Of a DNA stretch of 64,000 nt, positions 26,326 to 36,340 are shown piece after piece (the stretch's first letter is position 1; the number at the start of each line of letters is the position of its first letter). The notes below the pieces were generated by a model that worked only from the letters and a program-made list of their open reading frames with translations, made no database searches and was not told the DNA's origin. A program made the translations under genes and the position numbers. Origin of the DNA: Fibrobacterota bacterium (GTDB lineage Bacteria > Fibrobacterota > Fibrobacteria > UBA11236); NCBI GenBank assembly GCA_028287505.1, contig JAQBPN010000076.1:64069-128068 (forward strand), read 5' to 3'.

Positions 26326-26432
26326 TTTTCACCCCAAATCGTCTACTCCCGATGTAATCTGTCCGGCCTCGTAACGACTCAAATTTCAGCCTTTTATCTA
26401 TATTGTCAGCGGTTTCCAACCGGGAAGGCGTT

Positions 26433-28829
26433 TTGACCATTTTCAAGCACTGTTTCGCGCTTCTTCTTCTATTTCTGGCCATCGCCCCTTCCTCCGCCCA
26501 GCAGCTCGCAGGTCCCGGCTTTCGAAGCCCGGTCAAGGAAGTCAAGATTGCCGGCATCGTCCTCGAAGGCAACAAGACCGTGGACAAGTCCCTGGTCATC
26601 CGCACCCTTCAGGTCGAAAAGGGAGAAGAATATCTGCCTCCCGTTCTCCGCCAAAAGGTCCAGGCTTCGGTCACGGCCTTGAACAAACTGGGCCTCTTCT
26701 CGGATATCAAGGTCGACATCGACTATCCGGACTCGGTGGACGGAGCCATCCTGACCTTCACGGTGTCGGAATTGCCCACTTTGGCCCGCGCCGAGGTCAA
26801 AGGCAACAACAAGATCAAGAAGGACGATATCAAGGAAGTCATGGATCTGCTGGACGGGCAGGTCTATTCCCGCGGCGCGGTGGAACGCAACCGCCAGAAG
26901 ATCCTGGACCTGTACCATAATAAGGGGTACCTGCTGGCCCAGGTGGACGTGGAAGAGGGCGTCGAGACGGAAACCGGCCGCAAGACCATCACCTTCAAGG
27001 TGGACGAAGGCAAGAAGGTCCGGGTGCGCTACATAACCTTCGCCGGCAACACCCATGTGAAGGACAAGCTGCTCCGCAAGAAGATTCCCACCAAGGAAGA
27101 CAGGTGGTGGCGGGACGGGGATTTCAAGGAAGACGAATACCGCCTCGGCCTGGATACCCTGGTGGACTATTACCGGGAGCTGGGTTACCTGGACGCATCG
27201 GTGCAAGGCGAAAAGATCACCTATACCCCGGACAAGAAGTGGATGGATGTCCGCGTCAACGTCGAGGAAGGCAAGCGCTACCGCTTCGGCAAGGCCACCT
27301 TCATCCACAACAACATCATCGAGGATGCCGCCCTGAAAGCCCAGGTCCTGCTGGATTCCGGCGAAATCTTCAACATGAAGAAGTTCGAAGCCACCAAGTT
27401 CCAGGTGCAATCCCTGTTCCGCGAAGAAGGTTACCTCTTCATGGACATGCAGGACCAGTTCACTTATCGGGACACGGTCGTGGACGTGACTTTCAGCATC
27501 AAGGAAAACAGCATCGCCCACATCCACCTGGTGGATATCCGCGGCAATACCAAGACCAAGGACAAGGTCATCCGCCGGGAAGTGAAGCTTTTCCCGGGCG
27601 ACATCTTCCGCCAGTCCCTGATCATGCGCGCCCAGCGCGACATCATGCAGCTGGCCTTTTTCGACAATGTGGAGCCGAACATCGAGCAGGTCAAGGACGG
27701 GGATCCCAGCGACGTGAACCTGGTGATGAAGGTGACCGAAAAGCAGGCCGGAACCGGAACCGTCTCCGCGGGTCTGGCCTACAGCCAGCGCGACGCGTTG
27801 GTGGGAACCGTGGGCCTTCAGATTCCGAACTTCCTTGGCAATGGCCAGCGGGCGGACTTCAGCCTGGAATGGGGCCCGAACAAGCAACTCGGATCGATCG
27901 GATTCACCGAGCCCTGGTTCCTGGACACGCCCACCCTGGTGGGGGGCAGCATCTTCTACAGCTACCAGGCGGCCCTGCGCTCCATCGACCATGATTATAC
28001 CCGCTATGGGCTGCGCCTGAATCTGGGCCGGCGCCTGACCTGGCCGGATGATTATTTCACCGTCAGCTCCAGCTATAACCTCACCGAGAACGATAACGGC
28101 CTGACCAGCAACAAGAACTCCCTGATCATCCCTTCGGGCCTGGAATCCTCGCTGCATCTGACCCTCACCCGCGATGACAAGAACCTGCCCTTCTTTCCGT
28201 CCGAAGGTTCTTTGTACCGACTGACCTATAGCCGCGTGGGCGGCCAGTTGGGCGGCGATTTCGACTATCATCAGATCGAGAGCAAGGTGAACTGGTGGTT
28301 CCCCACCGTCGGCAAGCTGGTGTTGGGCGCTTCCACGGAATTCGGCATGCTCCTGGGCGGCAACATCCAGAGCTACGATTTGTTCCAGATGGGCGGCGTG
28401 CTCGGCTATCAGGGCAAGATGCGCGGATACGACCCGGGCAGCATCGGCAGCGCCCGCATCGGCCGCAGCTATTTCTCTTTCGTCACCGAGCTGACCTATC
28501 CCGTGGTCGAGAACACCTTCTATCTTCTCGGCTTCTACGATGTCGGCAACGTGTTCGGGAATCTGGCCAAGTTCGATCCCAATGTGGCGGGCAATTACAA
28601 TCCCATCGGCAAGAGCGCGGCTCCGGATCCCTGGGAGGAAATCGATTTCTCCGATCTGCGCCGCGATTTCGGCTTCGGATTCCGCCTGGTCATTCCCCTG
28701 GTCGCGCCCTTCGGCATGGGCTTCGACTTCGGCTGGCCGTTGGATGATCGGGAAACCTATGATGGCGCGCGCGTGCCCGTGGTGGGCAAGGCGCCTGTGG
28801 TCAACTTCGTAATCGAGCAAGGATTTTAA
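26433..28829 (+). CDS. bamA: Outer membrane protein assembly factor BamA
   Basis: An Omp85-family protein of 798 residues that inserts beta-barrels into the outer membrane. A signal peptide (FALLLLFLAIAPSSAQ) is followed by five POTRA repeats (about residues 35-420; for example VKEVKIAGIVLEGNKTVDKS) and a C-terminal barrel. The lid-lock motif MRGYDPGS lies in the barrel, and the protein ends in Phe (VNFVIEQGF), a beta-signal feature. I chose the TTG at 26433 because GGAAGG lies just upstream; the TTG at 26403 has no ribosome binding site. It leads the bamA-skp-lpxD group. Confidence 0.96.
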   Translation: MTIFKHCFALLLLFLAIAPSSAQQLAGPGFRSPVKEVKIAGIVLEGNKTVDKSLVIRTLQVEKGEEYLPPVLRQKVQASVTALNKLGLFSDIKVDIDYPDSVDGAILTFTVSELPTLARAEVKGNNKIKKDDIKEVMDLLDGQVYSRGAVERNRQKILDLYHNKGYLLAQVDVEEGVETETGRKTITFKVDEGKKVRVRYITFAGNTHVKDKLLRKKIPTKEDRWWRDGDFKEDEYRLGLDTLVDYYRELGYLDASVQGEKITYTPDKKWMDVRVNVEEGKRYRFGKATFIHNNIIEDAALKAQVLLDSGEIFNMKKFEATKFQVQSLFREEGYLFMDMQDQFTYRDTVVDVTFSIKENSIAHIHLVDIRGNTKTKDKVIRREVKLFPGDIFRQSLIMRAQRDIMQLAFFDNVEPNIEQVKDGDPSDVNLVMKVTEKQAGTGTVSAGLAYSQRDALVGTVGLQIPNFLGNGQRADFSLEWGPNKQLGSIGFTEPWFLDTPTLVGGSIFYSYQAALRSIDHDYTRYGLRLNLGRRLTWPDDYFTVSSSYNLTENDNGLTSNKNSLIIPSGLESSLHLTLTRDDKNLPFFPSEGSLYRLTYSRVGGQLGGDFDYHQIESKVNWWFPTVGKLVLGASTEFGMLLGGNIQSYDLFQMGGVLGYQGKMRGYDPGSIGSARIGRSYFSFVTELTYPVVENTFYLLGFYDVGNVFGNLAKFDPNVAGNYNPIGKSAAPDPWEEIDFSDLRRDFGFGFRLVIPLVAPFGMGFDFGWPLDDRETYDGARVPVVGKAPVVNFVIEQGF

Positions 28830-28838
28830 GGAGTAAAG

Positions 28839-29354
28839 ATGAAAAAGTCGGTATTGATTCTGGGTCTTCTCTTGGTCGGCATGGCCTTTCCCGCCGACTT
28901 GAAAATCGCGCACGTGGATTCCAAGCTGGTGTTCGACAAATATGCGGACACGAAAAAAGCGCAGAAGGAATACGACAAGCAGGTGCAGAAGTGGGAGCAG
29001 GACGCCGCCACCAAGCAGAAGAGCCTGATGGAGCTGAAGGACAAGCTGGAAAAGCAGTCCCTGATGCTCAGCGAAGAAAAGAAGAAGGAAATGGAAGCCG
29101 ACTTCCTCAAGAAGAAGAGCGAGTACGAGCAATTCGTACAGCAGATTTACGGCAAGGACGGAGCCCTGTTCCAGAAGAACGAGGAATTCTCGGGTCCCAT
29201 CATCACCAAGATCAAGAAGACCATCCAGGACGTGGCGAACCAGGAAGGCTATGACATGGTTTTCGACCGGGCCGCGGGCGCCGTTGTGTTCTGGAAGAAA
29301 GACAATGACCTTACCCAGAAGGTCATCGACGTGCTGAACAAAGAGGCCAAATAG
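28839..29354 (+). CDS. skp: OmpH/Skp-family periplasmic chaperone
   Basis: A 171-residue secreted protein that carries unfolded outer-membrane proteins to BamA. The signal peptide is MKKSVLILGLLLVGMAFPA, followed by LKIAHVDSKLVFDKYADTKKAQKEYDKQ, the usual OmpH opening. Residues about 45-120 are long, Lys/Glu/Gln-rich helices that would form the tentacles of the trimer. AAGGAG precedes the ATG. It lies 9 bases after bamA and 2 bases before lpxD, an arrangement conserved across many diderms. Confidence 0.93.
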   Translation: MKKSVLILGLLLVGMAFPADLKIAHVDSKLVFDKYADTKKAQKEYDKQVQKWEQDAATKQKSLMELKDKLEKQSLMLSEEKKKEMEADFLKKKSEYEQFVQQIYGKDGALFQKNEEFSGPIITKIKKTIQDVANQEGYDMVFDRAAGAVVFWKKDNDLTQKVIDVLNKEAK

Positions 29355-29356
29355 GC

Positions 29357-30439
29357 TTGCGCCTCGCCGCCTTGCGGCGCGGGGCCGCAAATCCAGCGGC
29401 CGCGGAAGCGGTCTCCCTCCCGGACATCCTCAGGATCTGCCGGCCCCACCTGATCCCGGGGTCCGGCGCCGCTCTCCCCTCCGACATCGCCTTCTCCGCC
29501 CTTGACGCGCCCGAATGCTCGGGGTCCGATTCCCTGACCTTCGTGGGTTCCCGGACTCCGCTCCGGGTGCGTTCGACCCTGCAGGCCGCCTTGATCATCG
29601 CGGAAGCGGGAACCGAGATGCCCGCCGTCCAGGGAAGAAAGGACATCCCCATCCTCCGGGTCCGCTCTCTGCATGCCGCCATGGCCGACCTCCTGAACGC
29701 ATTGGAGCCCCGTTTCCATCGCCCCGAACCCCGGCCTTCCGGTCCGGGAAACCGCATCGCCACCGGCGCCGTGGTGGAGGGTTGTCTGGAAGGGGATGTT
29801 TCCGTGGGCCCAGGGGCCTACGTCGGCAAAGGATCCTTCGTGGGCAGGGGAAGCCGGATCGAAGCCAACGCCGTCATCCAGGATCATTGCCGGATAGGAC
29901 GCAACTGCGTGGTGCAGTCCGGGGCGGTGATAGGCTGCGCCGGATTCGGATTTTTTCCGGCGCCGCTTTCCGAACCGGAGATGCTTGCGTCGGGATCCGC
30001 CGCCGCCGGGACGCCCATTCCCGGGTTGGCCGCCATGCCCCATCCGGCCGGCGTCGAGATCGGCGACGAGTGTTGGATCGGGGCCAACGCCGTGGTGGCG
30101 GCGGGCGTGCTCAATCCCACCGTACTCGGCCGCGGATGCAAGCTCGACAGCCATGTGCAAATCGCCCACAACGTCCGGCTCGGAGAGGATTGCCTGCTGG
30201 CTTCCCAATCCGGCATAGCCGGATCGACCGTGGCCGGAAATCGTTTGCGAATGGGAGGCGCGTCCAGCGTGGACGGCCATTTGCGGATCGGGGACGATGT
30301 GTCCATCGCCGCGTGTTCGGGGGTCACCAAGGATCAGCCCGATAAGGCGATAGTGGCGGGCTTCCCCGCCCGCCCCATCAAGGAGTGGCGCCGCCAGCAG
30401 ATTGCCTTGAAACGGATCGAGGGCCGCGGAGAGGGCTGA
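29357..30439 (+). CDS. lpxD: UDP-3-O-acylglucosamine N-acyltransferase LpxD
   Basis: A 360-residue left-handed beta-helix acyltransferase, third step of lipid A synthesis. Hexapeptide repeats run from about residue 135 to 335. The catalytic His lies in SHVQIAHNVRLGEDC and the LpxD-specific segment GAVIGCAGFGFFP precedes it. The start is TTG 29357, two bases after the skp stop, indicating coupled translation. The N-terminal domain has an unusual Ala/Arg-rich opening (RLAALRRGAANPAAAEA). Normally lpxC, fabZ and lpxA would follow; here they resume only at 33671. Confidence 0.93.
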   Translation: MRLAALRRGAANPAAAEAVSLPDILRICRPHLIPGSGAALPSDIAFSALDAPECSGSDSLTFVGSRTPLRVRSTLQAALIIAEAGTEMPAVQGRKDIPILRVRSLHAAMADLLNALEPRFHRPEPRPSGPGNRIATGAVVEGCLEGDVSVGPGAYVGKGSFVGRGSRIEANAVIQDHCRIGRNCVVQSGAVIGCAGFGFFPAPLSEPEMLASGSAAAGTPIPGLAAMPHPAGVEIGDECWIGANAVVAAGVLNPTVLGRGCKLDSHVQIAHNVRLGEDCLLASQSGIAGSTVAGNRLRMGGASSVDGHLRIGDDVSIAACSGVTKDQPDKAIVAGFPARPIKEWRRQQIALKRIEGRGEG

Positions 30440-30659
30440 AGGCGCTGAAGAGACCGGCGCGCCAGGTGTACATTCCCCACTTCGTACAGTCCGGCGGCCG
30501 GCCAATCGTAATACCCGGGATTTTCAGGAGGGCCGCTTTGCGTGCCGTTGCGCGGGATTTTTTCCGCGACCGCTCCCACCCAGCCAAGATATCCCGAATC
30601 CGACGGGCCCATTTGCGCGTCCGGGAAAAGAACGTATTCCCGCAGAATACAGTCCGGAC

Positions 30660-31922
30660 CTAATGTCGGATATATCCGAATGATGAAAGCAGATTGGTCT
30701 TGTCGTCCGGGCAGGCGGCGGGGCGTTCGCCGGGATTTCCAGGTTCCCGCGGCGGAAGCGTCCGCAGCCATCCCTTGACCACGTAGGCCCCGGTGGAGGC
30801 GATGTAGCCGGTGGCGCTGGCGGGATACCACATCAGGGAAATGGCCCGCCTGCCGTCCGATCCGGGGACGATGTTCGCCAGCATCTCCGCCGTGACTTCG
30901 CCTTTGGCCCGATTCACCATTCCGCCCTGATTCGTGAAGAACCCCAGATTGAATTCGAAAGGACCCGGCGTCGTCACCCGGATGTCCGGGCCGTTGGGAA
31001 ACCGGGTTTCGTCCGGACGGCGCGGATCCATCAGGCGCCAGGACTGATCCATGAAAATCCGCGCCTGGGACGGATCGCGCCGGGGCAGGATGGCGGAGAC
31101 CGGAAGGATCATGGGTTTGGAAAAGAACGTTTCCCCGCGGGCCACCCCGCCGGCTTCGGCTTGGATGGCGCAGGCCGGATTTCCCGGAATCGGCACGGGT
31201 TTGGAGACCTCGCCCGGCACGATGGGCAATCCGTTCCGCTCCACATCCATTTCCACGCCCGTCACCAGGATCACCATGTCTCCGAAGGTTTCGTTGGCGC
31301 CATCGTTGAAGGAAAAAAGGATCCCGCCCTCGCCATTCGCAACCTTGGCCGTTCCCGGGCAGGGAGGCCCCAGGGAATCCACCTGCTCCTTGGTGACCCG
31401 GGCCGCTTCTGCCCAGAGGTGGCGCGCCATATGTCCGTACTCCCCGCGTGAATAGAACCGGCTTTTCAGCGGATCATTGAGGCCGGTATAGCGAGGGCCG
31501 CAGGCCTCGCCCGTGCAATACAATCCGGCGTAATTGCTGGAAATGGTTCTCAGCATGAAAACGATTTCCTCGGTGGAATCGTACACGCCCAGGTCCGCCC
31601 TCAAGCCGCCGCTGTCCGGGCATCGTCCGCCCCGGCCGCTGCCGTGATAGAGCAGGAGCGGGTTCTCGTCCCCGGTGCGCGGGTCCATGAAGAAAAGCTG
31701 GTTTCCCCAATCCGCCGTGCTATGGACGAAGCGGACGCCCACGGGCTTTCCCGTGCCGTAAACCGTGGCCCCGCGGTACAAGGTGGTGACCGGAATGAAT
31801 GCCGAAGGCGTGTTGGGAATGACCTGGGTCCCGCCGGCGGCCAGAAGCGCGGCCGCGGCCGCGGAGGCTAAGAAGGCAAGCAGCCGGAACGACCTGCCTA
31901 TGTTGGCTCCCGCCGCCCTCAT
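30660..31922 (-). CDS. Secreted hypothetical protein, third gene of the TIGR02147 module
   Basis: A 420-residue protein I do not recognise. The start at 31922 overlaps the lipoprotein stop by one base (TGATG) and gives a signal peptide (LLAFLASAAAAALLAAGG). The mature part has short beta-type segments, several Cys (GLYCTGEACG, RCPDSGG), GGILFSFNDGANETFGDMVILVTGVEMD, and a C-terminal LMWYPASATGYIASTGAYVVKGWLR. FNDGANETFGDM resembles the acidic calcium-loop style of extracellular proteins, but this is only an impression. Translational coupling to the lipoprotein suggests both act together at the cell surface. The 220-base gap towards lpxD (30440-30659) shows no other gene. Confidence 0.8.
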   Translation of the reverse strand: MRAAGANIGRSFRLLAFLASAAAAALLAAGGTQVIPNTPSAFIPVTTLYRGATVYGTGKPVGVRFVHSTADWGNQLFFMDPRTGDENPLLLYHGSGRGGRCPDSGGLRADLGVYDSTEEIVFMLRTISSNYAGLYCTGEACGPRYTGLNDPLKSRFYSRGEYGHMARHLWAEAARVTKEQVDSLGPPCPGTAKVANGEGGILFSFNDGANETFGDMVILVTGVEMDVERNGLPIVPGEVSKPVPIPGNPACAIQAEAGGVARGETFFSKPMILPVSAILPRRDPSQARIFMDQSWRLMDPRRPDETRFPNGPDIRVTTPGPFEFNLGFFTNQGGMVNRAKGEVTAEMLANIVPGSDGRRAISLMWYPASATGYIASTGAYVVKGWLRTLPPREPGNPGERPAACPDDKTNLLSSFGYIRH

Positions 31923-32623
31923 CAAGGCCCCAAGTCTACCGTTTCCAGGGAAACCCGTCCGCCCGCATCCAGGGCCACGTCGGAAATCAGGGTTGTCAGG
32001 CCCGTATTGGCCATGGTGGATATGTGCAGGCTGTATTTGCCGGGCGGAAGCCCGCTCAAAGTGAAATCCCCCCCGATGGTGGCGGCGGTCCAGCGGTCCA
32101 TCCCATATACGGCGATGATGATTTTCGGCGGCGGGGATTGCGCGGGGCCGCGGTAAATCACTTTGCCTGAAATCCATCCGGTGGTGTCGATGAAAACCGG
32201 AGCCAAGGTCAGAAGATTGGAGCGGCCATCCTGGGACACTTCCATGATCGCGCCCCGCCCGGAGGTGTCGATCGCCTCGATCCGATAGTCCCCGCGGGGT
32301 ACGGAGTCCAAGGTGAAGAATCCCTGGGTATCGCTGAATCCATCCTGGACCGCCTTGCCCGCTTGTCCGGGAGCGCTGTCCGGATTGGAGAGGAATGCTT
32401 TCGGGCGCAGGTGGATGGGGATCAACGCCGCGGGACTTCCATCCCTATGCTTGATGGAACCGGAAATGCGGGCGGAGAAATCGGGGTTGCCCACATCTGT
32501 TCCGCCGCCGAGATTGCATGCGGTCGGCAGGAATGCCGATACGCACAGGAGCGCGGCCAGGCATAGGCCCGCCAACGCGCCGCGTATCCGCGGGAATGGG
32601 GAAGTCGCGGATGAGGGTTTCAT
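31922..32623 (-). CDS. Lipoprotein with GGGTDVGNP motif and carboxypeptidase-regulatory-like repeats
   Basis: A 233-residue exported protein. The signal peptide ends with LPTAC (lipobox-like, with Cys as lipidation site), followed at once by NLGGGTDVGNP, a tag I associate with Fibrobacter-type lipoproteins next to TIGR02147 genes. Two beta-sandwich repeats follow: GSIKHRDGSPAALIPIHL with GFFTLDSVPRGDYRIEAID, and GWISGKVIYRGP with GDFTLSGLPPGKYSLHIST. Both are of the carboxypeptidase-D regulatory (CarboxypepD_reg) type, often used in adhesion or surface assembly. The ATG at 32623 overlaps the regulator stop (ATGA), and the stop overlaps the next start. Confidence 0.85.
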   Translation of the reverse strand: MKPSSATSPFPRIRGALAGLCLAALLCVSAFLPTACNLGGGTDVGNPDFSARISGSIKHRDGSPAALIPIHLRPKAFLSNPDSAPGQAGKAVQDGFSDTQGFFTLDSVPRGDYRIEAIDTSGRGAIMEVSQDGRSNLLTLAPVFIDTTGWISGKVIYRGPAQSPPPKIIIAVYGMDRWTAATIGGDFTLSGLPPGKYSLHISTMANTGLTTLISDVALDAGGRVSLETVDLGP

Positions 32624-33519
32624 CGCATGCCTTCCGCGTTGCGGGTCTCGGAATGCTTGGCGCCGCCCGTCCGCTTTGCCTTGACCAGGGGAAAGAGCTG
32701 GAAGTTCAACTGGTAAACCTGATCGGCGCCGGCGCTTTGCGCGGCCAGGCCCAGGATCTTCATCCGGAACTCCCGCAACCAGGTTTTGATCTTTTCCATG
32801 TCGGGCTCGGAGACGCGCAGGGTGGTGCCGCTGATTTCCCGGTCCTTGCCGGAGAAACGGGACAGGGATTCGCCGCCCAGGCGGATCATCTCGCGGTGGA
32901 ATTGGGAAACCATCACGGATTTCACGCGCGCATCGGTGGCCATGGTTTTTTCCACCTGGGTCCAGCTGCGATCCTTTTGCATGGCGATCAGCCCCAGGGT
33001 CTTGAGCAGGGACAGGGAGTCGGCGGCTTCATCGGGCGTGATGGACGGGGAAAGCGCGTCGGCGACCCAATCGGGCGAGAATTGGAAATCCGGCAAGGAT
33101 ACGATTTCCCGGATGGCGAGATGCCACCAATGGGAGAAGACCTCGTATTGCCGCTCGCCCAGGCGCGCCGGATTTTCCCGGTCCCGCATATCGATCAGCT
33201 CCTGGAAGGACTTTTCCTTCTCGGTGGCGGTCCCCGCCTGGTTGTATTGCACCAGGGAAAGGAAATAGCGCTTGGAGTTCGCGTCGAGCTTGAAGGCCTT
33301 GGCGAAAGCCTCGGCGGCCGCGAAGGTGAGATTCCGTTTCCCATCGATGACGTTCTTGAGCACGTTCGGGGATTTGAAGCCCGCCCGCGTCACGATATAC
33401 CGGTGGGAAAACCGCCTCGATTGGGCCTTGTTGAACTCGAACAGGGCCTTGAGAAAGGCGCGATAATCGTAGAAAAGGAAAATGTCCGGCGCAGCCGGTA
33501 CGTTTCGGGCTTTATCCAT
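32620..33519 (-). CDS. TIGR02147-family putative transcriptional regulator
   Basis: A 299-residue protein of the family defined from Fibrobacter paralogs (TIGR02147/DUF4423). The opening DIFLFYDYRAFLKALFEFNKA, the HTH-like part GFKSPNVLKNVIDGKRNLTFAAAEAFAKAFKL, the central QYEVFSHWWHLAIREIVSL and the TLRVSEPDMEKIKTWLREFR segment near the end are diagnostic. A helix-turn-helix N-terminus suggests DNA binding; I am not aware of a proven target. I start it at the ATG at 33519; the TTG at 33555 would add 12 residues. It is the first gene of a coupled three-gene minus-strand unit and is divergent from lpxC. Confidence 0.9.
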   Translation of the reverse strand: MDKARNVPAAPDIFLFYDYRAFLKALFEFNKAQSRRFSHRYIVTRAGFKSPNVLKNVIDGKRNLTFAAAEAFAKAFKLDANSKRYFLSLVQYNQAGTATEKEKSFQELIDMRDRENPARLGERQYEVFSHWWHLAIREIVSLPDFQFSPDWVADALSPSITPDEAADSLSLLKTLGLIAMQKDRSWTQVEKTMATDARVKSVMVSQFHREMIRLGGESLSRFSGKDREISGTTLRVSEPDMEKIKTWLREFRMKILGLAAQSAGADQVYQLNFQLFPLVKAKRTGGAKHSETRNAEGMR

Positions 33520-33670
33520 AAGAGAATGTATAGCGCCAGGGTGGGGTTCGGCCAAGGAGGCTGCTCCGATTTACGTATTCCATAAGGATACATCCGTACG
33601 AAAGTTTTCGACTGGGGAAACCCTTCCGAACCCCGGAAATCGCGAAAAAACCTAATTTTACCTGAACCCC

Positions 33671-34540
33671 ATGGAAATCATCACCTCTTTGGATCTGGCC
33701 GGCACAGGCCTGCACAGCGGCTTTTCTTCCCGGCTGAAACTGGGCTTGAGGAACGGCGCTTCGGCTCCGGAACCCCGGTTCCGGTTTCCGGGATTGGGGC
33801 CGATTTCGCCCGCCGAATTGGGCCGCCTGCCGCGGCAGGCCCGCCGTTCGACCCGGTTGGGCGAGGGAGAGTCCGTCATCGCCACGCCCGAGCACTTGCT
33901 GGCCGCCTTGCTTTTCTTTTCCACCCTTCCCTTGGACGTCGAATGCGACGCTTCGGAATTGCCCGGCCTTGACGGCAGCGCCTTGCCGTACCGGGATGCC
34001 CTGTCGCGTCTGGCTCCCGGCGTGGCCGCCTCGCCCGCATGGCGCGAATACCCTTCGGACCTGGGCTGGGAGTACCATTGGAGTTACGGTTACATCCGCG
34101 TCCGGCCCGCCGCGCGTTTCCGGGTGCTCTGGCACCTGGATCGGCCCCCCTTGCGCCAGTCCTTTCTCCTCGAAGATCCCGCCACCGCCTTCCGGGAAAT
34201 CCTTCCGGCCCGCACCTTCGCCTTCCATCGCGAATGGCGGGAAGCCTCCGCGAACGGCCTGATGGCCGGGGTCGGGGAGGATTCCGGACTGCTCCTGGCC
34301 GAATCGGAAGCGGAATACGCGGAAGTACTGGGCCTCCATCCCCGATGGAAGGGCGGACCCTACCCCTTGCTCAACCTGCCCGGCTGGCGCGTGGAAAACG
34401 AATTGGCGAAACACAAAATCCTGGACTTATTGGGGGATCTGGCCTTGGTGGATTTGTCGCTGCCGAAATTGGATATCGAAATCCGCAACGGCGGGCACCA
34501 CGTCAATCATCTTCTGGTGGCAAGGCTGCTGGCCGCTTAG
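33671..34540 (+). CDS. lpxC: UDP-3-O-acyl-N-acetylglucosamine deacetylase LpxC
   Basis: Zinc-dependent deacetylase, the committed step of lipid A synthesis. Zinc ligands are His75 (TPEHLLAAL), His248 and Asp252 (KHKILDLLGD), and the C-terminal GGHHVNHLL holds the general acid/base His. At 289 residues it is slightly shorter than the usual 300-305. The N-terminus MEIITSLDLAGTGLHSG is typical. It is a separate gene, not fused to fabZ as in Bacteroidetes. FabZ begins 48 bases downstream. Confidence 0.93.
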   Translation: MEIITSLDLAGTGLHSGFSSRLKLGLRNGASAPEPRFRFPGLGPISPAELGRLPRQARRSTRLGEGESVIATPEHLLAALLFFSTLPLDVECDASELPGLDGSALPYRDALSRLAPGVAASPAWREYPSDLGWEYHWSYGYIRVRPAARFRVLWHLDRPPLRQSFLLEDPATAFREILPARTFAFHREWREASANGLMAGVGEDSGLLLAESEAEYAEVLGLHPRWKGGPYPLLNLPGWRVENELAKHKILDLLGDLALVDLSLPKLDIEIRNGGHHVNHLLVARLLAA

Positions 34541-34588
34541 ATACTAGATTTACCCTTCCAAACACCATTCGCTCGAAGAGGCCCTGCC

Positions 34589-35065
34589 ATGGGTGACAGC
34601 CCGGAATCCCTGTTCAAATCGGAAAACCCCAAGTTCATCATGGATTTCGCGGGCATTCTCAAGGTCCTGCCCCATCGCTATCCCTTTCTCCTGGTGGACG
34701 GCATCATCGCCTTCGAGAAGGAGAAATCCATCGTCGGCCAGAAAAACGTGAGCTTCAACGAGCCCTTTTTCGCCGGCCATTTTCCCGGAGAACCGGTCAT
34801 GCCCGGGGTGCTCCAGATTGAGGCGCTGGCCCAGATCAGCTGCATCCTGGTGGCGCTTTCCTATCCCGAAGAGTCGGCGGGCAAGCGGCCCGCCTTCGCC
34901 GGCATCGAGGAGGCCCGCTTCCGTAAACCCGTGCGCCCCGGCCATGTCCTAACCCTCAAGGGAGAGTTGGAAAAATACCGCCGCGGCTATGCCGTGGTCA
35001 AGACCCGCGCGGAAATCGACGGGGACCTGGTGGCGGAGGCGATCATCAAAGCCTCCATGATCTGA
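34589..35065 (+). CDS. fabZ: (3R)-hydroxyacyl-ACP dehydratase FabZ
   Basis: A 158-residue hot-dog-fold dehydratase of fatty acid elongation; it competes with LpxA for hydroxyacyl-ACP, which explains its place in lpx operons. Catalytic His64 lies in [12 protein letters not shown] and Glu78 in LQIEALAQ, 14 residues apart as in E. coli. [11 protein letters not shown] is the usual N-terminal signature. It is 22 bases upstream of lpxA. Confidence 0.96.
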
Positions 35066-35087
35066 GCCGGGTCCAATCCCCATTTCC

Positions 35088-35870
35088 ATGCGCATCCATC
35101 CCACCGCGGTCCTGCATCCGTCCCTGGAGTTGCCCCCGGACCTGGAAGTAGGACCTTACGCCATCCTGGACCAGGACGTGGGTCTGGCGCCCGGCATCCG
35201 CATCGGTCCGTTCAGCCATGTCTATCCGGGTGTGCGTCTGGAGGCGGGCGTCCGGCTCGAGGATGGCGTCATCCTCGGCAATGCCCCCCAGGATATGAAG
35301 TACCGCGGGGAAAAAACCGGCGTCCGCATCGGGGCCGGAACCCACTTGCGGGAATACGTCACCGTGAACCGCGGCACCGCGGCCTCGGGTTGGACTACCG
35401 TGGGAAGCCATTGCCTCATCATGGCCTATACCCATGTGGCCCACGATTGCCACCTCGAGGATCAGGCCATAGTCGCCAACGGCGTGCACATGGGCGGCCA
35501 TGTCCGGATCGGCAAGGCGGCCGTCATCTCCGGAATGACCGGCATCCACCAATACGTCGTCATCGGCGCCGGAGCCTTCATTGGCGGAGGATTGCGGGTG
35601 GACAAGGACGTGCTGCCTTTTTCCAAGGCCCTGGGAGATCCCTTGCGTTATGCCGGCCTGAATGAAATGGGGCTCTCCAAATCCGGACTGCCGGCGGGAA
35701 CCGGGGCGGATTTGAAGGCGTTCTACCGGGGTCTGTTCCGGGACGGCAAAGAGGCGACCCTGGCGAAAGCGGAGGCGCTTGGCTCAGGGGCGATAAACCT
35801 GGTATTGAAGGATTTTTTCGGGAGCCAGAAGAGGGGCGTGCTGATGCGCCCTTCCGGCGGCATAGAATAG
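35088..35870 (+). CDS. lpxA: UDP-N-acetylglucosamine acyltransferase LpxA
   Basis: A 260-residue left-handed beta-helix enzyme, first step of lipid A synthesis. The start IHPTAVLHPS, the LGNAPQDMKYRGE segment, the REYVTVNRGT motif and the catalytic His in MAYTHVAHDCHL all match LpxA. A C-terminal helical part (about residue 190 onward) completes the trimer. It ends the lpxC-fabZ-lpxA group; a hairpin follows the stop. Confidence 0.96.
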   Translation: MRIHPTAVLHPSLELPPDLEVGPYAILDQDVGLAPGIRIGPFSHVYPGVRLEAGVRLEDGVILGNAPQDMKYRGEKTGVRIGAGTHLREYVTVNRGTAASGWTTVGSHCLIMAYTHVAHDCHLEDQAIVANGVHMGGHVRIGKAAVISGMTGIHQYVVIGAGAFIGGGLRVDKDVLPFSKALGDPLRYAGLNEMGLSKSGLPAGTGADLKAFYRGLFRDGKEATLAKAEALGSGAINLVLKDFFGSQKRGVLMRPSGGIE

Positions 35871-35911: not shown

Positions 35912-36340
35912 CTAGGCCGTGTGGAGGTTGAGTTCCTCTTCAATCAACGGCATCAGCTGATCCTTCAGCTTTTCGAAGCAAAACACCTGCTGGAACATGG
36001 ACGTGCTGCGATGGGCTTCGGCTTTGTGGCGGATCCATTCGGCGACGCAGGTCTGGCGCTTGGAAAGGTCGTCGGCCTGGCCCCCGTCGATTTCCTTGCG
36101 GATGGTGTCGGACTGCTTGACCATGTATTGGGCCATGTTGAACGGCATATTGTGCTGGATGATGAAAATCTTGATGAGCATTTCCAGCGGGCGGGGGCCT
36201 TCGATGCGTTGGAAGTCTTGTATGAACTGTATCAGTTTGTCGCGATTGGCGCGGATGAACGGCAGGATTGAGGCTTTGAGATCGTTCATCTCGCCGCAAT
36301 CAAAGGCGTGTTCCAATTCTCTTACGACTTCGGATCCCAC
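35912..36340 (-). CDS. Hypothetical helical cytoplasmic protein
   Basis: A 142-residue protein that I do not recognise. It has no signal peptide or membrane segment and reads as mostly alpha-helical (DKLIQFIQDFQRIEGPRPLEMLIKIFIIQHNMP; MVKQSDTIRKEI; CFEKLKDQLMPLIEEEL). The GTG start at 36340 is supported by AGGGG nine bases upstream and an extended -10 promoter (TGGTATAAT) at 36392-36400, so it seems a real single-gene unit. It converges on lpxA. Confidence 0.7.
   Translation of the reverse strand: MGSEVVRELEHAFDCGEMNDLKASILPFIRANRDKLIQFIQDFQRIEGPRPLEMLIKIFIIQHNMPFNMAQYMVKQSDTIRKEIDGGQADDLSKRQTCVAEWIRHKAEAHRSTSMFQQVFCFEKLKDQLMPLIEEELNLHTA

Follow-up and report, generated by a model that had tools for sequence, protein, structure and literature searches.

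How a cytoplasmic regulator could take part in the control of exported proteins with which it is encoded in a single overlapping run of genes is the question raised by a module of three minus-strand genes in Fibrobacterota bacterium GCA_028287505.1. The module, which encodes a TIGR02147 regulator, a lipoprotein and a further secreted protein, lies in a stretch of 64,000 nucleotides (nt) of contig JAQBPN010000076.1 (positions 64,069-128,068, forward strand), hereafter the window. We consider it probable, on the strength of comparative sequence analysis, that the regulator is an auto-activator whose DUF4423 domain binds a tether motif, located shortly after the lipidated cysteine, of its own co-translated lipoprotein, the likeliest target being the precursor that has not yet been exported. 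Gene and transcript starts were computed, the genomes used were mostly metagenome-assembled, and kinship among them was handled by dereplication and contrasts only. The module comprises the following features:

32620..33519, minus strand: regulator gene of the TIGR02147/DUF4423 type, 299 amino acids, with an XRE-type helix-turn-helix, a winged helix and a C-terminal helical domain
31922..32623, minus strand: lipoprotein gene, 233 amino acids, with two CarboxypepD_reg-like repeats; the same architecture occurs in 48 paralogous pairs
32483..32509, minus strand: codons of the lipoprotein motif GGGTDVGNP (residues 39-47), defined by a motif model and by co-variation with DUF4423
30660..31922, minus strand: third gene, encoding a secreted protein of 420 amino acids, with orthologs only within the genus

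Pairing of TIGR02147 regulators with lipoproteins

An earlier note, made from the sequence of the window, had described three overlapping genes. These overlaps were confirmed, as ATGA between the regulator and lipoprotein genes and TGATG between the lipoprotein and third genes, and four genomes of the genus share all three genes in this order. The assignment of the regulator to TIGR02147 was likewise correct, with a whole-length match (E 3.7e-78) of 263 bits against a cut-off of 50 and a DUF4423 match of 129 bits against a cut-off of 30. The NCBIfam entry for this family (TIGR02147, Fsuc_second; PF14394, DUF4423) describes a paralog family without function.

The source genome (6.07 Mb, 130 contigs) contained 56 TIGR02147 matches, 55 of them above the cut-off, corresponding to about 52 full-length genes. 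A lipoprotein gene was found directly behind 48 of these, nearly always with the post-cysteine motif, which in this genome reads G-[GT]-[GS]-[ST]-[ED]-[TV]-[GE]-N-[PT]. The lipoprotein gene overlapped the regulator gene in 36 pairs and started at exactly -4 (ATGA) in 29, so that the translational coupling proposed for the window locus is a recurrent arrangement. In the Fibrobacter-like family, a lipoprotein followed the regulator at 30 of 30 loci; most loci were also paired in other families, where the misses were explained partly by contig ends or by the strict lipobox rule. TIGR02147 was present in 111 of the 121 genomes of this phylum of fiber-degrading bacteria, and no match was detected in 14 control genomes outside it; relatives carry the names Fibrobacteria, Fibrobacter and Chitinispirillaceae. 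The gene order that the earlier note suggested searching for across Fibrobacterota was found phylum-wide for the regulator and the lipoprotein, whereas the third gene belongs to it only within the genus. Truncated TIGR02147 genes without a partner lipoprotein (L054, C47:47767; L049, C129:13228; L053, C96:53677) were also observed and are probable remnants of the expansion.

The AlphaFold model of the window regulator (mean predicted local distance difference test, pLDDT, 89) showed an XRE-like N-terminus, a central winged helix and long helices. Foldseek matched this model to 3vk0 with a probability of 1.00 and a weak E-value, and fold matches were taken as a hint only. HTH_3 was matched in 10 of 47 regulators, and a sequence search of the window regulator against the PDB gave no match. 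No TPR domain was found in the regulators by domain search or by AlphaFold modeling and fold search, and a membrane segment was absent from all 104 regulators checked. The lipoprotein bodies combine CarboxypepD_reg repeats with LamG, DUF2341, CBM6/35, LRR, Kelch or other ligand-binding types. The genes behind other modules (L044, L042 and others) include those for GH39, alpha-L-fucosidase, PA14 and BNR proteins, and some modules are situated in polysaccharide loci.

A motif behind the lipidated cysteine

In the window lipoprotein, the lipidated Cys is residue 36 and is followed by NLGGGTDVGNP; CarboxypepD_reg was matched above the cut-off in two stretches, in agreement with the GGGTDVGNP sequence and the two repeats previously reported. 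Comparison of 149 lipoproteins yielded the consensus G-[GTN]-[GSV]-[ST]-[ED]-[TV]-[GE]-N-[PTG] shortly after the lipidated cysteine. A motif profile of 38 positions, built from the lipoproteins of the source genome, recovered the paired lipoproteins of that genome, together with one unseen case behind a TIGR02147 gene, ahead of nearly any other lipoprotein. In two genomes of another family, the profile gave 21 hits at E<=0.01. Eighteen of these hits start 36-161 bp downstream of a TIGR02147 match, two correspond to a second lipoprotein located 2.2-2.5 kb downstream of such a match, and one is unlinked. Since the hits are almost all located behind TIGR02147 genes, the motif marks regulator-paired lipoproteins rather than lipoproteins in general. 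A plain search with six codons of the motif was dropped in favor of the profile, having returned 26 hits against 6 in a reversed control.

The variant of the window, GGGxD[VI]GNP, was also found behind eight regulators of Chitinispirillaceae and a Fibrobacter genome that are 48-53% identical to the window regulator, and most of the lipoproteins sharing it are otherwise unrelated to the window lipoprotein. The codons of the motif vary freely, which indicates conservation at the protein level, and a role as a nucleic-acid element was rejected for this reason.

Operators and promoters of the regulator genes

Two elements were assigned upstream of the window regulator:

33574..33592, minus strand: putative operator 1, TGTATCC-TTATG-GAATACG, about 61 bp upstream of the predicted transcription start of the regulator gene and conserved in four genomes of the genus
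33527..33555, minus strand: predicted promoter TTGGCC - 17 bp - TATACA, read from the sequence, with the -10 hexamer 7 nt ahead of the ATG (predicted leaderless mRNA)

The -10 hexamer begins 41 bp after the palindrome, and the block formed by operator 1, TTGGCC-17-TATACA and the ATG 7 nt later is the sole conserved part upstream of the regulator in the four genomes. At the same place, distant relatives of the regulator in Chitinispirillaceae and the Fibrobacter class carry GTATTC-N5-GAATAC. The operator type of the family can be written as YGYnnnn-N4/5-nnnnRCR, each regulator apparently having a private palindrome at a fixed distance upstream of its promoter. Among 86 non-redundant upstream regions, this signature was present with spacer 5 in 20 (1.2 expected) and with spacer 4 in 12 (0.8 expected), and no comparable enrichment was obtained with other spacers or outer signatures. 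In a held-out set of 60 loci, the corresponding counts were 11 against 0.7 expected and 8 against 0.5 expected. A general enrichment of inverted repeats upstream was set aside because these could be terminators, and only the test specific to spacer and signature was kept.

In 34 of 50 operators, the -10 hexamer starts 39-42 bp behind the palindrome, a distance that places the operator center near -61; a class I activator site near -61.5 is known from CRP. Ahead of many TIGR02147 genes, the -10 hexamer lies 6-7 nt before the start codon and a ribosome-binding site is lacking (window 33519-33532; L213, L214, L219, L220), and the regulator mRNAs are predicted to be leaderless. Control of lpxC, which lies upstream of the regulator gene on the opposite strand, by operator 1 is not claimed: the position would allow it, but there is no standard distance to a recognizable lpxC promoter.

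Co-variation of the regulator with operator and motif

Regulators and lipoproteins diversified together (Spearman 0.47 against a permutation maximum of 0.30), and the nearest neighbor agreed between the two protein sets in 18 of 47 cases, with 1.0 expected. The bases of the operator tracked regulator residues 45-59, in the helix-turn-helix (z 6.2), and not the DUF4423 segments, with residues 135-149 (z 3.4) as the exception; residues 165-284 gave z<=1.2. When 104 non-redundant pairs were compared by segment, the motif tracked DUF4423 residues 195-284 (z 5-6.5), with little tracking of the helix-turn-helix (z 2). The two patterns are opposite in the same proteins, and common descent alone is therefore insufficient to explain them. 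Among these pairs, neither the signal peptide nor the residues behind the motif tracked the regulator, and no segment-by-segment tracking was found for the lipoprotein body outside the motif. The functional link between regulator and lipoprotein suspected in the earlier note is supported by this co-variation of the motif with DUF4423.

At the level of single residues, position 256 of the regulator is Leu when motif position 3 is Gly (49 of 53 pairs) and another residue otherwise (47 of 51; table 49/4/4/47 for the 104 pairs). Independent contrasts on the tree gave 17 cases for this association and one against, the best result of all residues. Residue 128 (Tyr/Phe) varied with motif position 4 (Ser/Thr) in 17 to 3 contrasts. 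Residues 245, 248, 252, 256 and 259 are located on one face of the last helix, as judged by counting along the helix of the AlphaFold model. The window pair holds the expected combinations, namely L256/G3, R252/D5, F128/T4 and H208/V6.

The third protein

The third protein, described in the earlier note as an unknown secreted protein, has a signal peptide and no match in Pfam, NCBIfam, PHROGs or, by sequence, the PDB; this description stands, and structure prediction added nothing to it, the fold model being unusable (pLDDT 32, five sequences). Its orthologs were found only in the genus among the genomes searched. One domain could be delimited:

30663..30992, minus strand: C-terminal domain of the third protein, ending SFGYIRH, common to the C-termini of many large secreted proteins here

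Many large secreted proteins have C-termini that end FG-[YF]-x-R and match these 110 residues, forming a domain family that ends TGAYxxKG...FG[YF]xR (L081-L089 and window 30663-30992). Models of type IX secretion (T9SS), FlgD_ig and CHU_C domains (TIGR04183/CHU_C type) gave weak hits only, in single members, and SprA is encoded in the source genome. The family is possibly a type IX sorting domain of Fibrobacterota that lies outside current models. A role of the third gene as a general effector was rejected because the genes downstream of other modules are diverse.

A second operator and promoter behind the module

Behind the third gene, the operator recurs together with a predicted promoter:

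30633..30651, minus strand: putative operator 2, TGTATTC-TGCGG-GAATACG, 9 bp behind the third gene and conserved in all four module-bearing genomes
30586..30591, minus strand: -10 hexamer TATCTT of a second predicted promoter, 41 bp after operator 2
30454..30501, minus strand: conserved hairpin with the loop AGTGGGGAA in the candidate transcript of the second promoter, with two-sided changes

The distance from operator 2 to TATCTT is exactly 41 bp in all four genomes, and the intervening DNA is not conserved. The candidate short RNA (window 30454-30591), predicted in the four genomes, would run antisense toward the 3' end of lpxD. Three pairs of the hairpin are changed on both sides in only four sequences, which is weak by itself, and Rfam contained no family at the second promoter. 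Two other modules carry a second copy of their own operator behind the lipoprotein gene, at about 35 bp (L070, C129) and 196 bp (L064, C33); for the former, a -10 hexamer follows at 39-41 bp. These copies suggest that the regulator may control the next gene as well.

Position within the lipid A gene cluster

The module interrupts a bamA-skp-lpxD-lpxC-fabZ-lpxA cluster (window 26403-35870), with bamA, skp and lpxD on one side, the module on the opposite strand, and lpxC, fabZ and lpxA on the other. All three genes were found in order between lpxD and lpxC in four of the six genomes of the genus. No TIGR02147 gene was found at this place in the other two or in the three sister-genus genomes examined, one of which has 1.6 kb of other sequence between lpxD and lpxC. 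In two genomes of the genus, lpxD and lpxC stand side by side, so the insertion (or loss) of the module is recent. Within the genus, orthologs are 84-90% identical for the regulator, 50-67% for the lipoprotein and 61-71% for the third protein; lpxC and lpxD are 57-69% identical between the same genomes, and a comparison of these values with that of the regulator points to strong constraint on the regulator. The placement of the module inside the lipid A gene cluster suggests a link to outer-membrane control. Next to lpxA, the window also encodes a 142-amino-acid protein (35912-36340, minus strand) that has no family match and is 79-94% identical in all five relatives of the genus.

Proposed mechanism

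The regulator would act as a one-component transcription factor that activates its own operon. The N-terminal helix-turn-helix would bind a private palindrome about 61 bp upstream of the transcription start of that operon, and the C-terminal DUF4423 domain the post-cysteine motif, here GGGTDVGNP, of the lipoprotein translated right after it. The candidate ligand peptide for the window regulator is CNLGGGTDVGNPDF. The lipoprotein would thus be both the product and the ligand of its own activator. As the regulators have no membrane segment, contact with the motif would be confined to the cytoplasm and hence to the precursor, barring the return of a peptide; the motif is expected in the cytoplasm only before export, so that the regulator would read the unexported form. 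While export keeps up, the activator would remain in one state, and build-up of precursor would switch it, most simply off. The immediate synthesis of the lipoprotein behind its regulator fits contact with the precursor, and an auto-activator that reads the precursor is favored. Across the phylum, dozens of orthogonal pairs would operate, each with a single surface lipoprotein, and at times a neighbor, under its control. At the window locus, the activator probably drives the coupled secreted protein and the second transcript starting behind it.

Sequence statistics support the pairing, the operators, the fixed distance between operator and promoter, and the co-variation of operator with helix-turn-helix and of motif with DUF4423. 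Activation rather than repression and direct binding of the motif are inferences, as are precursor sensing and the direction in which the regulator responds. Several observations weigh against the proposed mechanism. The operator signature was chosen after inspection of spacer-5 sites in the first locus set, an objection answered in part by the held-out set, and a clear operator copy was present in only about a third of the upstream regions. The assignment of the operator center to a class I activator position counts from a transcription start deduced from hexamers. Co-variation is linked evolution and not contact, and only L256-G3 and residue 128 with position 4 remained strong after correction for descent. 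A salt bridge between R252 and an acidic residue (D/E) at position 5 would fit, with 4 to 1 contrasts, which is weak after correction. The whole maps obtained from the two halves of the data were also weakly correlated (0.16).

Alternative explanations

The motif might instead be a sorting signal that an envelope machine reads for surface placement, the regulator controlling expression only and the co-variation arising from co-inheritance. The lipoprotein export signal of Bacteroidetes likewise lies behind the lipidated cysteine (PMC5080379), the lipoproteins have bodies of ligand-binding type that suit the surface (LamG, DUF2341, CBM6/35, LRR, Kelch), and the rarity of Asp at +2 (2 of 104 lipoproteins) is consistent with outer-membrane sorting. 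A general sorting signal agrees poorly with a motif nearly exclusive to lipoproteins adjoining a TIGR02147 gene, and co-inheritance with the division by which the motif varies with DUF4423 and the operator with the DNA-binding half, including the 17 to 1 contrasts for L256-G3; we regard this explanation as unlikely. We think it less likely still that a cleaved-off peptide of the exported lipoprotein is re-imported and binds the regulator, in the manner of Gram-positive lipoprotein pheromones. An XRE-type regulator whose separate C-terminal domain tracks a short partner peptide would suit such a route, but the known cases release the signal peptide, whereas here the signal peptide does not co-vary with the regulator, which led us to reject a signal-peptide pheromone, and the motif is on the mature side, beside the lipid. 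Moreover, neither a peptidase nor an importer belongs to the regulator-lipoprotein pair.

The earlier note had proposed a sensor-anchor-effector system, in which a ligand outside the cell is bound by the lipoprotein, the signal crosses the envelope to the regulator, and the third protein acts as effector. A sensory role is favored by lipoproteins that contain carbohydrate- and protein-binding domains and by the proximity of some modules to glycosidases such as GH39 and alpha-L-fucosidase, but a surface signal would have no membrane-spanning part to carry it inward, since the regulators contain none and the mature lipoproteins hardly any. The restriction of the third gene to the genus and the lack of segment-wise tracking of the regulator by the lipoprotein body outside the motif also argue against this system, which we consider improbable to much the same degree as peptide re-import. 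Finally, the modules could be chromosomal cassettes that spread mainly for themselves and were inserted in conserved operons, their operators having diversified against cross-talk. The 56 copies in the source genome, the clean presence or absence between lpxD and lpxC within one genus and the operators at both ends of the window module would be expected of such elements; set against this are a module with which no transposase or integrase was seen, the strong constraint implied by regulator orthologs 84-90% identical beside lpxC and lpxD at 57-69%, and near-universal occurrence in the phylum (111 of 121 genomes), and we judge self-spreading cassettes to be the least credible explanation. Export-coupled control through the unexported precursor is the likeliest route, although unproven. 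Tentatively, the modules could represent a new class of such control, in which an activator senses the unexported form of its co-translated lipoprotein through a DUF4423 pocket, with about fifty orthogonal copies per cell that have private operators; this broader proposal is appreciably less secure than the auto-activator model itself.

Significance and relation to known systems

No published description was found of regulator-lipoprotein modules that tie gene control to envelope proteins, and a search of TIGR02147/DUF4423 family descriptions and literature returned nothing on a DNA site, promoter position, lipoprotein partner or partner motif, consistent with the earlier note, which knew of no described function for such a module. 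A paralog family formerly without an assigned function gains a candidate DNA site, promoter position, partner and ligand. If the regulator reads the tether, each surface lipoprotein would be controlled individually through its own precursor, and the dozens of regulator-operator-peptide sets that have diversified naturally would offer material for specificity rules. The genome paper of F. succinogenes noted few recognizable regulators near cellulase genes (PMC3079729). The modules, some of which adjoin glycosidases, are candidates for part of this missing regulation.

Large paralogous sets of surface proteins and regulators in polymer-degrading bacteria are known from cell-surface signaling by extracytoplasmic function (ECF) sigma factors, anti-sigma factors and TonB receptors. 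The modules resemble these in their large paralogous sets of a surface protein with a dedicated regulator, and differ in that the pair has no sigma factor, anti-sigma factor, TonB receptor or membrane-spanning part. RRNPP regulators, which have a TPR domain, use lipoprotein-derived pheromones (PrgX/cCF10) and read the signal peptide. They share with the present family an XRE-type regulator whose C-terminal domain is apparently specific for a lipoprotein peptide; in the modules, no TPR domain was found and the part read would be the mature N-terminus. In Bacteroidetes, the lipoprotein export signal is a charged sequence (QKDDE, K-(D/E)2) at +2 to +6 that is common to surface lipoproteins (PMC5080379). 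It is similarly a short conserved stretch directly after the lipidated cysteine, whereas the motif described here is rich in G, T and N, lies mostly 2-11 residues further on and is confined to regulator-paired lipoproteins. Secretion-coupled transcription is represented by FlgM-sigma28. It is also represented by ExsE-ExsC-ExsD-ExsA of type III secretion (PMC7303211, PMC5138213). As in these systems, a cytoplasmic transcription factor would be informed of export status by a protein that is itself exportable. Unlike in them, the partner is a Sec-dependent lipoprotein that remains the product, no anti-activator cascade is involved, contact would be direct, and each genome has dozens of private pairs.

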